From NCBI GenBank assembly GCA_025054955.1, contig JANWZE010000101.1:1-64000 (forward strand): DNA of 64,000 nt, in the 5' to 3' direction. Position 1 is the first letter of the stretch, and each line of letters starts with the position of its first letter. Made by a program: the position numbers and the translations under genes. Below the pieces are notes generated by a model. It had not been told where the DNA came from. It searched no databases and was given only the letters and a program-made list of their open reading frames with translations. Positions 48,459 to 54,596 of this stretch are shown here, piece after piece. This DNA comes from Blastocatellia bacterium. Its GTDB lineage: Bacteria > Acidobacteriota > Blastocatellia > HR10 > J050.

Positions 48459-49523
48459 TTATGGAACATCAGCCGGATGAGTCGCTGCATGTGGAGACTC
48501 AGTTGATGGTCGTTTCTTAGGAAATACCAACGAGAGAGTGATCGAAACAGTAATCACAGTCGCAATAATGCCGAGTGATAGCCCAATAGGAAACTTGCCG
48601 CCGTATAGATCGTTGAGCCATACCATCTTTAATCCGACGAATATTAACACGAGCGCCAATCCGTACTTGAGCATGTGAAACTTGTCCACCGCGCCCGCCA
48701 GCATAAAGTACATAGCACGCAGACCAAGAATGGCAAGAATGTTTGAGGTGAAAACAATCATTGGCTCATGAGTCAACGCAAAGATGGCCGGCACGGAATC
48801 AATCGCAAAAGCAATGTCCGACATCTCGATGAACAACAGTGCTACCAACAACGGCGTCGCCTGCCACAGACCATTGACGCGGACAAAGAATCGTTGGCCG
48901 TGCAATTGAGGTGTGACCGGCACATAGCGCCGGAATAATCGAATCAAGCTGTTCTTCTCCGGTTCCACTTTCGTTTCTGGCGCAAAGATCATCTTAATGC
49001 CAGTGAATATCAAAAATGCGCCGAAGAAGAGCAACACCCAATGGTACCGCATCAACGCTGCACCCATGGTGATGAAAATAGCTCGGAAGACGAGCGCACC
49101 TAGGATGCCGTAGTACAAAACGCGATGTTGATAGATCGCTGGAACGGCAAAATAGTTGAAGACCACTACAAAGACGAAAATGTTGTCAACAGCCAGTGAT
49201 TTCTCGACGAGGTAGCCTGCTAAGAACTCTAATCCAACCTGTTGAGCTGCTGCTGCTGGATCAAACCCGGCAATCGCGCTCAGGCGCGGATCACGAGGGA
49301 ACTTCCAGAGCGCGAAGCGATAGAGCGCGTAATTAAAGACGAGCGCCAGCGTTACCCAGACGGCGCTCCATGCGGCAGCCTCACGGAACGAGACAACATG
49401 TGCATGACGATGAAAGACACCTAGGTCAAGCGCCAATAGAAATAATACGAAGCCAGTGAAGGCAGCATAAAACCACCAATACTCTGCAAATGGAAAAAGG
49501 TAAATGGTCGCCATGCCGGGCAT
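48459..49523 (-). CDS. TerC/Alx-family membrane protein (putative metal exporter)
   Basis: 354 residues with about nine membrane helices. The TerC pattern is clear: ALDLGVFHRHAH near residue 32, FLAGYLVEKSLAVDNIFVF with acidic Glu/Asp in helices, and FIEMSDIAFAIDSVPAIFAL. TerC/Alx proteins export manganese in bacteria and load metal onto exported enzymes. The start may be MPG or the next Met (MATIYLF). It lies 38 bp after a zinc-ribbon gene. The yybP-ykoY riboswitch two genes upstream fits manganese control if the transcript reads through. Confidence 0.92.
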   Translation of the reverse strand: MPGMATIYLFPFAEYWWFYAAFTGFVLFLLALDLGVFHRHAHVVSFREAAAWSAVWVTLALVFNYALYRFALWKFPRDPRLSAIAGFDPAAAAQQVGLEFLAGYLVEKSLAVDNIFVFVVVFNYFAVPAIYQHRVLYYGILGALVFRAIFITMGAALMRYHWVLLFFGAFLIFTGIKMIFAPETKVEPEKNSLIRLFRRYVPVTPQLHGQRFFVRVNGLWQATPLLVALLFIEMSDIAFAIDSVPAIFALTHEPMIVFTSNILAILGLRAMYFMLAGAVDKFHMLKYGLALVLIFVGLKMVWLNDLYGGKFPIGLSLGIIATVITVSITLSLVFPKKRPSTESPHAATHPADVP

Positions 49524-51048: not shown

Positions 51049-51085
51049 AAAAAAGACCTTTTGTAGCTTCTGCCACAAAAGGTCT
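51049..51085 (-). terminator. Intrinsic terminator of the htpX leader riboswitch
   Basis: On the minus strand, AGACCTTTTGT (51085-51075) pairs with ACAAAAGGTCT (51064-51054) across a 10-nt loop, followed by six U (51054-51049). Its 5' arm contains the P1 3' strand of the riboswitch (CCTTTT), so aptamer P1 and terminator exclude each other. Confidence 0.8.
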
Positions 51086-51191
51086 TGATCCCTTAGCTCA
51101 TTCGAGCTTGGTTGGTTGACCGGGTTGCCCTATGTCAAGCAACCGTGTTGACGATCTAACCAAACCCCTCGGGGTGATCTACTCCCCTTTT
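51077..51191 (-). ncRNA. yybP-ykoY-type (Mn2+) riboswitch in the htpX leader
   Basis: Minus strand 51191 to 51077. The yybP-ykoY hallmarks are present: AAAAGGGGAGTAG at the 5' side, CGTCAACACGG in the middle, and GATCAAGACCTTTT at the 3' side, with P1 formed by AAAAGG and CCTTTT. These riboswitches bind Mn2+ and typically control manganese exporters, including TerC/Alx-type proteins. The 3' P1 strand is shared with the terminator, so Mn2+ binding should prevent termination. The downstream genes are htpX, then (342-bp gap) zinc-ribbon and terC. Confidence 0.72.
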
Positions 51192-51289
51192 CTGCGTTTT
51201 TAAGAACAGTCATTTTATGAATGTAGTTGGCTGGTGTCAACAGTTTATACGGGTGGATTTTTATTTATGAAAAAATTTTTGAAGAAAAC

Positions 51290-51318
51290 TTGACAAACTC
51301 ATACTAAGATTTTATTAT
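51290..51318 (+). promoter_or_regulatory. Strong sigma70-type promoter of hsp20
   Basis: TTGACA at 51290-51295 and TATTAT at 51313-51318, separated by the ideal 17 bp. The 5' leader then has a hairpin CTGACTCGA...TCGGGTCAG (about 51339-51372) before the ribosome-binding site GGAGG. No CIRCE element was seen. Confidence 0.7.
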
Positions 51319-51401
51319 ATTGTCGCAATAAAAAATTGCCTGACTCGATAGAGGAACAACTCGGTCGGGTCAGAAATCTAGTAATGTAGGAGGATAAGAC
51401 A

Positions 51402-51875
51402 ATGATTCTGGCACGACGATATGATCCGATTCGAGAACTGACCACATTCGATCCATTTCGCGATTTGGTCACGTTGCAACAGAGGATCAATCGCATGTTT
51501 GATGAAATCTTCCCGTCGGCTGAACCGTCTGGATTGAAGATGCACACATGGTCGCCGTCGGTTGATATTTATGAGCAGCCGGAAGCGTTGGTCATTGAAG
51601 CGGAGCTTCCCGGCCTGAGCAAGCAGGATGTCTCGGTGAAGCTGGAGAATAATACGCTGACAATCCAAGGTGAGCGGAAGCTGGCTCACGAAGACAAGCG
51701 TGAGAACTATCATCGTATTGAGCGGGCGTATGGCTCATTTGTGCGCAGCTTCACGCTTCCCACCAATGTTGACACAGAAAAGATCAATGCTGAGTTCAAG
51801 GATGGCGTCCTACACATTGTGTTGCCCAAGCGGGAAGAGGCCAAACCGCGAGAGATCGAAGTCAAGGTCGGTTGA
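51402..51875 (+). CDS. Small heat-shock protein Hsp20
   Basis: 157 residues. The alpha-crystallin domain (about 47-145) is complete: SPSVDIYEQPEALVIEAELP, then LTIQGERK and the conserved GVLHIVLPK motif. The C-terminal tail is short and the IXI motif is not obvious. Hsp20 oligomers hold unfolding proteins for later refolding or degradation. GTAGGAGG precedes the ATG. The gene has its own near-consensus promoter and lies upstream of lon. Confidence 0.93.
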   Translation: MILARRYDPIRELTTFDPFRDLVTLQQRINRMFDEIFPSAEPSGLKMHTWSPSVDIYEQPEALVIEAELPGLSKQDVSVKLENNTLTIQGERKLAHEDKRENYHRIERAYGSFVRSFTLPTNVDTEKINAEFKDGVLHIVLPKREEAKPREIEVKVG

Positions 51876-52193
51876 AACACAGCGGCCTGGAAGCGAGCAC
51901 AGCGACCCTCGTGCCGTCGTGGTGGTTGGCGCTGTGCTCGCCCAGGATAATAGATGAGGTTGAATGGTTAATCGAGGGGAGAGCTGCTGGCTGGCATGCG
52001 GTTTGACTCAGCAGTTGTTCCCCATTCCGCATCCGTATCGAGTACTCAGCAATCGGTTTGACGCACTAGTTGTTTGTGAACAGATGGGCAAGCCAATAAT
52101 GGACATGGATGGACACGGACAAGTTCGCTCAACGGATCAGGCCATGCCCACGGTCAATCTCGTTCTTCGTTCATTCGTGTCCAAGGAGAGATC
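51876..52193. other. hsp20-lon spacer, nothing recognised
   Basis: About 318 bp without a convincing gene. It includes the lon ribosome-binding site (AAGGAGAG near 52182) but no clear terminator or operator was recognised. Confidence 0.35.
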
Positions 52194-54596
52194 ATGAACG
52201 ATTCGGAATCTCTGCAAGAGCAACTAGAAGTTCTGCCTGTGCTGCCGGTGAAAAATACGGTGCTTTTCCCGTATTTAGGCCTTCCGCTTGCTGTGGGTCG
52301 GCCGGCCTCGCTGGCGGCGGTCGAAGCGGCGCTACAAAGTGAAGAGAAAGAAATCGTCGTGGTGGCGCAGCGTGATGCATCCATCGAAACGCCGACGCAG
52401 GACGACCTCTACACAATTGGCACAAAGGCGATCATCAAACGGTTCTCTCGCTCAGCAGAGAACCTTGTGCAAGTGATTGCCCAGGGAATCGAACGAGTGG
52501 TCGTCTTACGAGTTGTCCAAACCGAACCTTATTTGCAGGCGCGTATTCAACCACTGCCGTTACCAACAGACAGCAGCCCAGAGGTAGAGGCGCTTTATCG
52601 TGCCGTTCTTGATTTGGTCAATCAAGCTTTGGGGTTGATCCAGCCGCAGGTACCGTTTGATCTGGCTCAGGTGCTGGCCACGACAAAGGACCCATTGCAA
52701 CTTGTTTATTTCATCGGCTCGATTCTGAATCTGGATTTGGATAAGGAGCAACGCATCCTGGAAGCCCCAACACGAGCCGAGGCGCTGCGTCTGGTGCATT
52801 CTTACCTCGCTCATGAGGTGCAGGTACTCGAACTGCGCCAGCAAATTACCAATCAAGCGCAGAGCGAAATCAGCAAACAACAGCGCGAGTACATGCTTCG
52901 CCAACAACTGCGCGCTATTCAGGAAGAATTGGGCGAGAAAGATTCCGAACAGGCAGAGATCGAAATGCTGCGCCAGCGCATCGCGGAGACCGATCTTCCT
53001 GACGAAGTTCGCAAGGAGGCTGAGCGGGAGCTGAAGCGGCTGGAAAAATTGCCGATGGCCTCCCCCGAATACAGTGTGATTCGCACCTATTTAGACTTGG
53101 TGGTGGAGCTTCCCTGGCGCAGGGGGACGGATGAGCTGATTGACATTGCGCGCGCGCGACAGGTGTTAGACGAAGACCATTTCGGATTGAAAGAGGTCAA
53201 GGAGCGGATTCTGGAACATCTGGGCGTGCTCAAGCTCAATCCCGATGCCAAAGCCCCCATTCTCTGTTTCGTTGGGCCGCCCGGTGTAGGAAAGACATCG
53301 CTTGGTCAATCCATCGCGCGGGCGCTCGGACGCAAGTTTGAACGATCAAGTCTGGGTGGCATGCACGATGAGGCGGAGCTGCGCGGGCATCGTCGCACCT
53401 ACATTGGCGCTATGCCCGGACGGTTAATTCAAGCGTTGCGTCGCGCCGGTGTCAACAATCCGGTGCTCATGCTCGACGAGGTTGATAAAATCGGTCGCGA
53501 TTTCCGCGGCGATCCGGCGGCAGCGCTGTTGGAGATTCTAGACCCTGAACAGAACAAGGAATTTCGCGACAATTATCTGGACCTCCCGTTTGATTTATCC
53601 AAGGTGTTTTTCATCACGACGGCGAACACGCTCAGCACGATTCCTCAACCGTTGCTCGATCGAATGGAGATCATCCAGTTATCGGGCTATAGCGAGGAAG
53701 AGAAGATCGAAATTGCCACACGGTACTTGATTCCTCGACAATTGAAGCAAGCCGGATTAAGCGATCAGCAATGTTCAATCGAGCGTGATGCGTTACGCTA
53801 TGTGATTTCGCGTTACACGCGCGAAGCGGGCGTGCGACAACTGGAGCGTATGATTGGCCGATTGATGCGCAAAGTAGCGTTGCGTTTTGCCGAGGGCGCA
53901 ACGGAGCCGGTTGTCGTTCACGTCTCTGATTTGGCCGAGATGCTGGGCCCGGCGCGATTTTCGCCTGAACAGATGCGCAAGCAGTTGCCGCCCGGCGTTG
54001 CTACGGGCTTAGCTTGGACGGAAACAGGCGGTGATGTATTGTACGTTGAGGCGACGCAACTGCCCGATGGTCGCGGCTTGACGCTGACGGGACAACTTGG
54101 CGATGTGATGAAGGAATCGGCTCAGGCAGCGCAAAGTTACATCTGGTCGCACGCTGACGAATTTGGCATTGACCGTCAGGTCTTCCGGAAGTCGGGCGTC
54201 CATATTCACGTTCCAGCAGGCGCTATCCCCAAGGATGGGCCATCAGCCGGCATCACGATGGCGACGGCGTTGGCCTCGCTTTATACGAAGTGCCCGGCGC
54301 GGAGTGATATTGCGATGACCGGCGAAATCACGCTCACCGGCTTGGTGTTGCCGGTTGGCGGCGTGAAAGAGAAAGTCTTAGCTGCCCGGCGTGCCGGCAT
54401 CAGCCGCGTCATCCTGCCGAAAGAAAATGAGAAAGACATGCGCGACTTGCCCGATGAAGTGCGTCAAGAGATGGAATTCATTTTTGTTGAACGAATCGAA
54501 GACGTCCTGGCAGTCGCGATTCCAGGATTGGAACGACGCCCGTTGACCCATCTTCCCGAAGGGCCGGACACGTCGCACACCAGACCGCTGGCGTAA
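52194..54596 (+). CDS. lon: ATP-dependent protease Lon
   Basis: 800 residues. The N-terminal substrate-binding domain starts VLPVLPVKNTVLFPYLGLPL. The AAA+ domain has Walker A GPPGVGKTSLG (about 361) and Walker B MLDEVDKIG. The C-terminal LonP domain has the Ser-Lys dyad: KDGPSAGI (Ser about 681) and GGVKEKVLAARRAG (Lys about 724). It degrades damaged and regulatory proteins. It follows hsp20, forming a stress pair. A strong terminator-type hairpin lies at 54769. Confidence 0.96.
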   Translation: MNDSESLQEQLEVLPVLPVKNTVLFPYLGLPLAVGRPASLAAVEAALQSEEKEIVVVAQRDASIETPTQDDLYTIGTKAIIKRFSRSAENLVQVIAQGIERVVVLRVVQTEPYLQARIQPLPLPTDSSPEVEALYRAVLDLVNQALGLIQPQVPFDLAQVLATTKDPLQLVYFIGSILNLDLDKEQRILEAPTRAEALRLVHSYLAHEVQVLELRQQITNQAQSEISKQQREYMLRQQLRAIQEELGEKDSEQAEIEMLRQRIAETDLPDEVRKEAERELKRLEKLPMASPEYSVIRTYLDLVVELPWRRGTDELIDIARARQVLDEDHFGLKEVKERILEHLGVLKLNPDAKAPILCFVGPPGVGKTSLGQSIARALGRKFERSSLGGMHDEAELRGHRRTYIGAMPGRLIQALRRAGVNNPVLMLDEVDKIGRDFRGDPAAALLEILDPEQNKEFRDNYLDLPFDLSKVFFITTANTLSTIPQPLLDRMEIIQLSGYSEEEKIEIATRYLIPRQLKQAGLSDQQCSIERDALRYVISRYTREAGVRQLERMIGRLMRKVALRFAEGATEPVVVHVSDLAEMLGPARFSPEQMRKQLPPGVATGLAWTETGGDVLYVEATQLPDGRGLTLTGQLGDVMKESAQAAQSYIWSHADEFGIDRQVFRKSGVHIHVPAGAIPKDGPSAGITMATALASLYTKCPARSDIAMTGEITLTGLVLPVGGVKEKVLAARRAGISRVILPKENEKDMRDLPDEVRQEMEFIFVERIEDVLAVAIPGLERRPLTHLPEGPDTSHTRPLA

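Follow-up and report, generated by a model that had tools for sequence, protein, structure and literature searches.

Manganese riboswitches are thought of mainly as controls of exporter genes. In the DNA studied here, an initial annotation placed one of them in front of a protease gene instead. This DNA, called the window below, is a stretch of 64,000 nucleotides from a Blastocatellia bacterium (assembly GCA_025054955.1, contig JANWZE010000101.1). The annotation described a yybP-ykoY RNA directly upstream of htpX, with terC further down. The question is whether this RNA really belongs to the family, and if so, whether it is there for htpX or for the gene of the TerC protein behind it.

The three motifs on which the annotation was based are present on the minus strand and in the order given, within 51191-51077. 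They are AAAAGGGGAGTAG (51191-51179), CGTCAACACGG (51153-51143) and GATCAAGACCTTTT (51090-51077). Table 1 lists the features, with refined coordinates for the aptamer and for the terminator and its T tail.

Table 1 Features of the putative manganese-responsive operon in the window.
Feature	Position	Strand	Basis or remark
Predicted yybP-ykoY (Mn2+) riboswitch aptamer, four-way junction	51077-51191	-	R1 and R2 models, constrained fold
P1.1 5' strand, AAAAGG	51186-51191	-	
L1 5' strand, GGAGUA	51180-51185	-	identical in 71-72 of 72 relatives
L3, UCAACA	51146-51151	-	A at 51149 conserved in 72 of 72
P1.1 3' strand, CCUUUU, common to aptamer and terminator	51077-51082	-	
Intrinsic terminator, perfect 15 bp, -21.9 kcal/mol, then T-rich tail	51053-51086	-	
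Sigma-70-like promoter TTGACA-N17-TAAAAT, 11 of 12 consensus matches	51212-51240	-	consensus scan; by itself no evidence of function
htpX, M48 membrane zinc metalloprotease, 287 aa	50159-51022	-	PF01435; NF002826
znR, small zinc-ribbon protein, Zn_ribbon_TFIIB, 84 aa	49562-49816	-	PF13453
terC/alx, TerC/Alx family metal homeostasis membrane protein	48459-49523	-	TIGR03718 'R_switched_Alx', PF03741

The RF00080 model in the Rfam copy used here (177 positions) finds no match in the window, either at the gathering score or at E ≤ 10. The same copy, however, leaves the E. coli alx leader unmatched at E ≤ 10, and both alx and mntP unmatched at the gathering score. Both leaders are reported as Mn2+ riboswitches (PMC9603457), so the Rfam negative carries no weight. 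Over L086 8376-8499, L087 7466-7572 and further loci, the model misses alx, mntP and the relatives tested, an annotation gap worth reporting. Weak RF00080 matches in four genomes (G001, G045, G070 and G122) were taken as false: the GGGGAGTA matches in L083, L084 and L085 come without an aptamer, and two of them (L083 and L085) coincide with coding sequence.

Searching with a regular expression for the motif gave false matches as well (L002, L041, L046, L061(-) and L069(-)), and covariance models therefore took its place.

The first covariance model, R1, is built from ten leaders of other genomes, nine before htpX and one before a P-type ATPase gene. The window is excluded from it. Against the window, R1 scores 49.2 bits (E = 3.3e-11), and it also finds alx (32.4 bits) and mntP (28.1 bits). 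Because its training set had been gathered with the motif of the initial annotation, a second model, R2, was made, again with the window left out; its members are solely terC-family leaders and the two E. coli leaders, alx and mntP. R2 scores the window at 65.8 bits (E = 1.1e-14) and matches nothing else, there or in the rest of the genome. It also matches every other htpX-associated leader tested (E ≤ 4.4e-10) and the exporter leaders of locus L021 and genome G161. Since R1 was used to collect the members of R2, each model is only partly independent of the other; independence does hold for the gene context and for the E. coli members. The window shares its aptamer with alx and mntP in that one model, R1, finds all three, and R2 finds the window again.

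Family and strand thus stand as annotated. The annotation had named a covariance-model search as the check on its assignment. With Rfam this check came out negative, formally a result against the assignment, and with the purpose-built models it came out positive. As a yardstick Rfam is invalid here, because it misses alx and mntP, which the purpose-built models detect.

When P1.1 is enforced, the leader folds into P1.1, L1 and P1.2, then P2, P3.1-L3-P3.2 and P4. The four-way junction of P1, P2, P3 and P4, with L1 splitting P1 and L3 splitting P3, is present in folds, model alignments and pair counts alike, and constrained folds of 10 relatives follow the same plan. None of 200 shuffles is as stable as the whole leader (z = -5.7). 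The 24 base pairs were counted over 72 sequences, in an alignment that is fitted to the R1 structure and somewhat favours it: 92% of the pairs are formed versus 73% in shuffles, and the covariation score is 0.511 versus 0.166. Changes on both sides occur in 20 of the 24 pairs, and the pairing drops to about half when the partners are shifted one column. On the ten training leaders as aligned by MAFFT, the R1 structure is 93% paired, against 79% in shuffles. A direct DNA search of the two other genomes of the window's family found no copy.

The annotation also had P1 and an intrinsic terminator compete for one strand. This is borne out: the 5' arm of the terminator, AAGACCUUUU, includes the 3' strand of P1.1, which makes the two structures mutually exclusive. 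The same sharing is found in all 22 leaders examined, 20 before htpX and two before exporter genes adjoining htpX. The promoter-like site lies some 20 nt upstream of the aptamer. Beyond the terminator, and outside the alternating structures, sits a Shine-Dalgarno-like GAAGGAG; this favours transcriptional over translational control. Thermodynamic folding favours the terminator over the P1.1 state by about 10.6 kcal/mol. Switching must therefore rely on co-transcriptional kinetics and the energy of the ligand, as is general for the yybP-ykoY family.

The gene order is as annotated, with htpX directly downstream, followed by znR and terC on the same strand. HtpX scores 402 bits with NF002826 (cut-off 369), and its HExxH zinc site is present as AHELGHVKN in the translation. 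For TerC/Alx the scores are 390.8 bits with TIGR03718 (cut-off 246) and 171 bits with PF03741 (cut-off 27.8). On this strand, a consensus scan of the stretch from htpX to terC found no promoter-like or terminator-like site. The gap between htpX and znR measures 342 bp and may hold a separate, unrecognised promoter; we infer readthrough across it. The genome's sole TerC and its sole switch are both in this operon.

The window's htpX is not the only one in the genome: a second (L175, G000:C152:41351-42187), 54% identical to it, lies on a different contig. This copy has no switch, and the HtpX tree places it on a separate branch. Divergent from the htpX of the window, on the plus strand, are hsp20 (51402-51875) and lon (52194-54596), with a promoter-like TTGACA-N17-TATTAT before them at 51290-51318. 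This places a proteostasis cluster (window 51290-54596) beside the putative Mn2+ operon.

By R1, at least 50 of the 162 genomes of the window's class have the switch, and the Rfam copy used overlooks it across this class. There are 59 such matches, 28 directly before terC and 8 before htpX. Local searches add a switch in G149 and a second copy in G161. Among the HtpX proteins of the class that are at least 63% identical to the window's, and counting the window's own, 10 of 12 have the switch, versus 0 of 10 for more distant copies. The nearest named HtpX, from an uncultured Acidobacteria bin, is 68% identical.

Two close relatives, in G148 and G144, have no detectable switch. The htpX leader of G144 (L174) keeps a terminator-like hairpin, GACCTTTTGTGC...GCAGAAGGTCTTT, and a GTCA element, and GGGGAGTAG is absent. 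It resembles a switch that has decayed or has diverged strongly.

Outside the class, the switch is found at 10 of 80 htpX loci, a sample in which HtpX proteins resembling that of the window are over-represented. The carriers are Geomonas, Geobacteraceae, Desulfuromonas, Geopsychrobacter, two 'Deltaproteobacteria' bins and the Nitrospirota bin Mn-Nitrospirae-1. In total, 20 htpX genes with the switch are spread over Acidobacteriota, Desulfuromonadales/Geobacteraceae, a Nitrospirota lineage and a further 'Deltaproteobacteria' lineage.

It could be that the switch really serves terC, and that htpX is a passenger which happens to come first in the operon. terC is the classical target of the switch, and 28 of the 59 switches of the class are directly before it. 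We nevertheless give this reading only a small chance. Within 2.5 kb of 7 of the 20 htpX genes with a switch there is no exporter gene, two of these judged on less than 700 nt of sequence. At L021, htpX and a P-type ATPase gene each have a switch of their own, and in G161 (L152) the same goes for htpX and znR-terC, so htpX is itself a target of the switch. On the HtpX tree, six gains or losses of the switch are the minimum that well-supported branches allow, so the link with htpX is not one frozen accident. The initial annotation had presented htpX at the head of the operon as an oddity. The position is correct; the comparative data show a recurrent, direct target and not an oddity.

The htpX gene adjoins terC or a P-type ATPase gene in 13 of 20 cases with the switch versus 5 of 81 without it (Fisher p = 5e-8, relatedness ignored). 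L053 and L069 have an mntP-like gene upstream as well. That the pairing of switch, htpX and exporter recurs in distant groups suggests that HtpX is a partner in coping with Mn2+ excess. At three further loci (L003, L005 and L035, from Nitrospirota and Bacterium BMS3Bbin05) htpX adjoins a P-type ATPase gene and no aptamer was detected; L003 keeps a hairpin, AGGCCTTTA...TAAGGCTTTTTTA, before htpX.

The window matches every listed core position of L1 (GGGGAGUAG / AAGACC) and L3 (CGUCAxxAC). The core residues are conserved in 69-72 of 72 relatives, and all of them are intact in the window. The A at 51149 is the counterpart of the invariant Mn2+-contacting adenosine, A41 in L. lactis and A48 in X. 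oryzae. The Mn2+-contacting role of this L3 adenosine comes from solved aptamers (PMC6754395). Judged by its sequence, the RNA is a regular yybP-ykoY member, of a class already known, and the intact core points to Mn2+ as the ligand.

It is conceivable that the family fold has come to bind another divalent metal, for example Fe2+, Co2+, Ni2+ or Cd2+, and that htpX belongs to another metal response. In favour, HtpX is a zinc protease with heat-shock genes among its neighbours, and a ligand is not readable from sequence with certainty. This is quite improbable, since the L1 and L3 core, including the Mn2+-contacting A, is identical to that of relatives before TerC exporters, and since terC/alx is in the same operon. 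A plain terminator or attenuator hairpin, or a leader that senses no ligand and resembles the motif by chance, would agree with the lack of an Rfam match at the gathering score, but Rfam equally misses alx and mntP, and this reading is hardly credible: two window-blind models match with E-values of 1e-11 and 1e-14, the pairs covary over 72 sequences and the match is the sole one in the genome, so chance resemblance is refuted.

Very probably, then, this is a transcriptional, Mn2+-activated (ON) yybP-ykoY riboswitch that controls the htpX-zinc ribbon-terC operon; we infer the ON direction. At low Mn2+, the GACCUUUU strand would pair forward into the 15-bp terminator, and transcription would stop before htpX. 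At high Mn2+, the ion would dock L1 and L3, contacting adenosine 51149, and P1.1 would be stabilised. Stabilised P1.1 would withhold the strand from the terminator, and RNA polymerase would read into htpX, znR and terC. TerC/Alx would then export Mn2+, or load it onto exported proteins. HtpX is presumably of benefit under Mn2+ excess: it probably removes damaged or mismetallated proteins in the membrane or in translocation, or works with TerC at the translocon. Such joint work at the membrane is plausible because HtpX co-immunoprecipitates with the TerC proteins of B. subtilis (PMC10550928).

The arrangement resembles the transcriptional type of RF00080, as in Lactococcus lactis yoaB. Both have the four-way junction, the GGGGAGUAG L1, the UCAxxAC L3 with its invariant adenosine, the AAGACC strand and a P1.1 that is shared with an intrinsic terminator. 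In the L. lactis switch, the terminator is kept from forming by a P1.1 that Mn2+ has stabilised (PMC11087558). Unlike in the yoaB type, the first gene here encodes a membrane protease, and not an exporter or P-type ATPase; a further difference is that the Rfam copy used does not recognise the window RNA.

E. coli alx is a homologue of the terC in the window operon. The E. coli leaders act differently downstream, however, with mntP described as a translational riboswitch (PMC11647493), and no htpX is under the switch there. In B. subtilis, the TerC proteins MeeF and MeeY metallate exported enzymes, and it is with these that HtpX co-immunoprecipitates (PMC10550928, available part). As is predicted for terC here, meeY is under a Mn2+ riboswitch. 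That part of the source does not describe B. subtilis htpX as riboswitch controlled, whereas in the window htpX and terC are in one operon, behind one switch.

PMC10550928 is also the sole work among the open-access papers searched that pairs yybP-ykoY with htpX, and the portion available does not propose regulation of htpX by the switch. The main text of a 2013 survey of RNA regulons is without htpX. As a target of the switch, htpX appears to be undescribed in the open-access papers searched.

Through the recurrent, independent placement of the switch on htpX, a protease of membrane quality control would directly join the Mn2+ response. The TerC-HtpX contact of B. subtilis would also gain genetic backing from other phyla. 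Whether one can go further is an even call. A dedicated HtpX paralogue might be a core part of the response to Mn2+ excess, repeatedly placed under Mn2+ riboswitches and working with TerC at the membrane or translocon, within a wider Acidobacteriota regulon that includes an exported carbonic anhydrase, DUF2490 and an unnamed family.

Other genes are found behind the switch in the same class. An exported family of 180-207 aa without a Pfam match follows it four times (L089, L092, L095 and L110 (~1500-1600)), DUF2490 three times (L105, L108 and L119) and an exported beta-carbonic anhydrase once (L091). We know of no manganese link for any of these exported proteins. The switch also stands before TerB-like and universal-stress-protein genes (L112, L116, L123, L126, L130, L132; L106, L111, L122, L125), and several of these cases have terC or a P-type ATPase gene adjoining. 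Finally, L145 (G101) has two switches on one strand, at 235-338 and 2067-2171, about 1.8 kb apart, the first of them upstream of terC.
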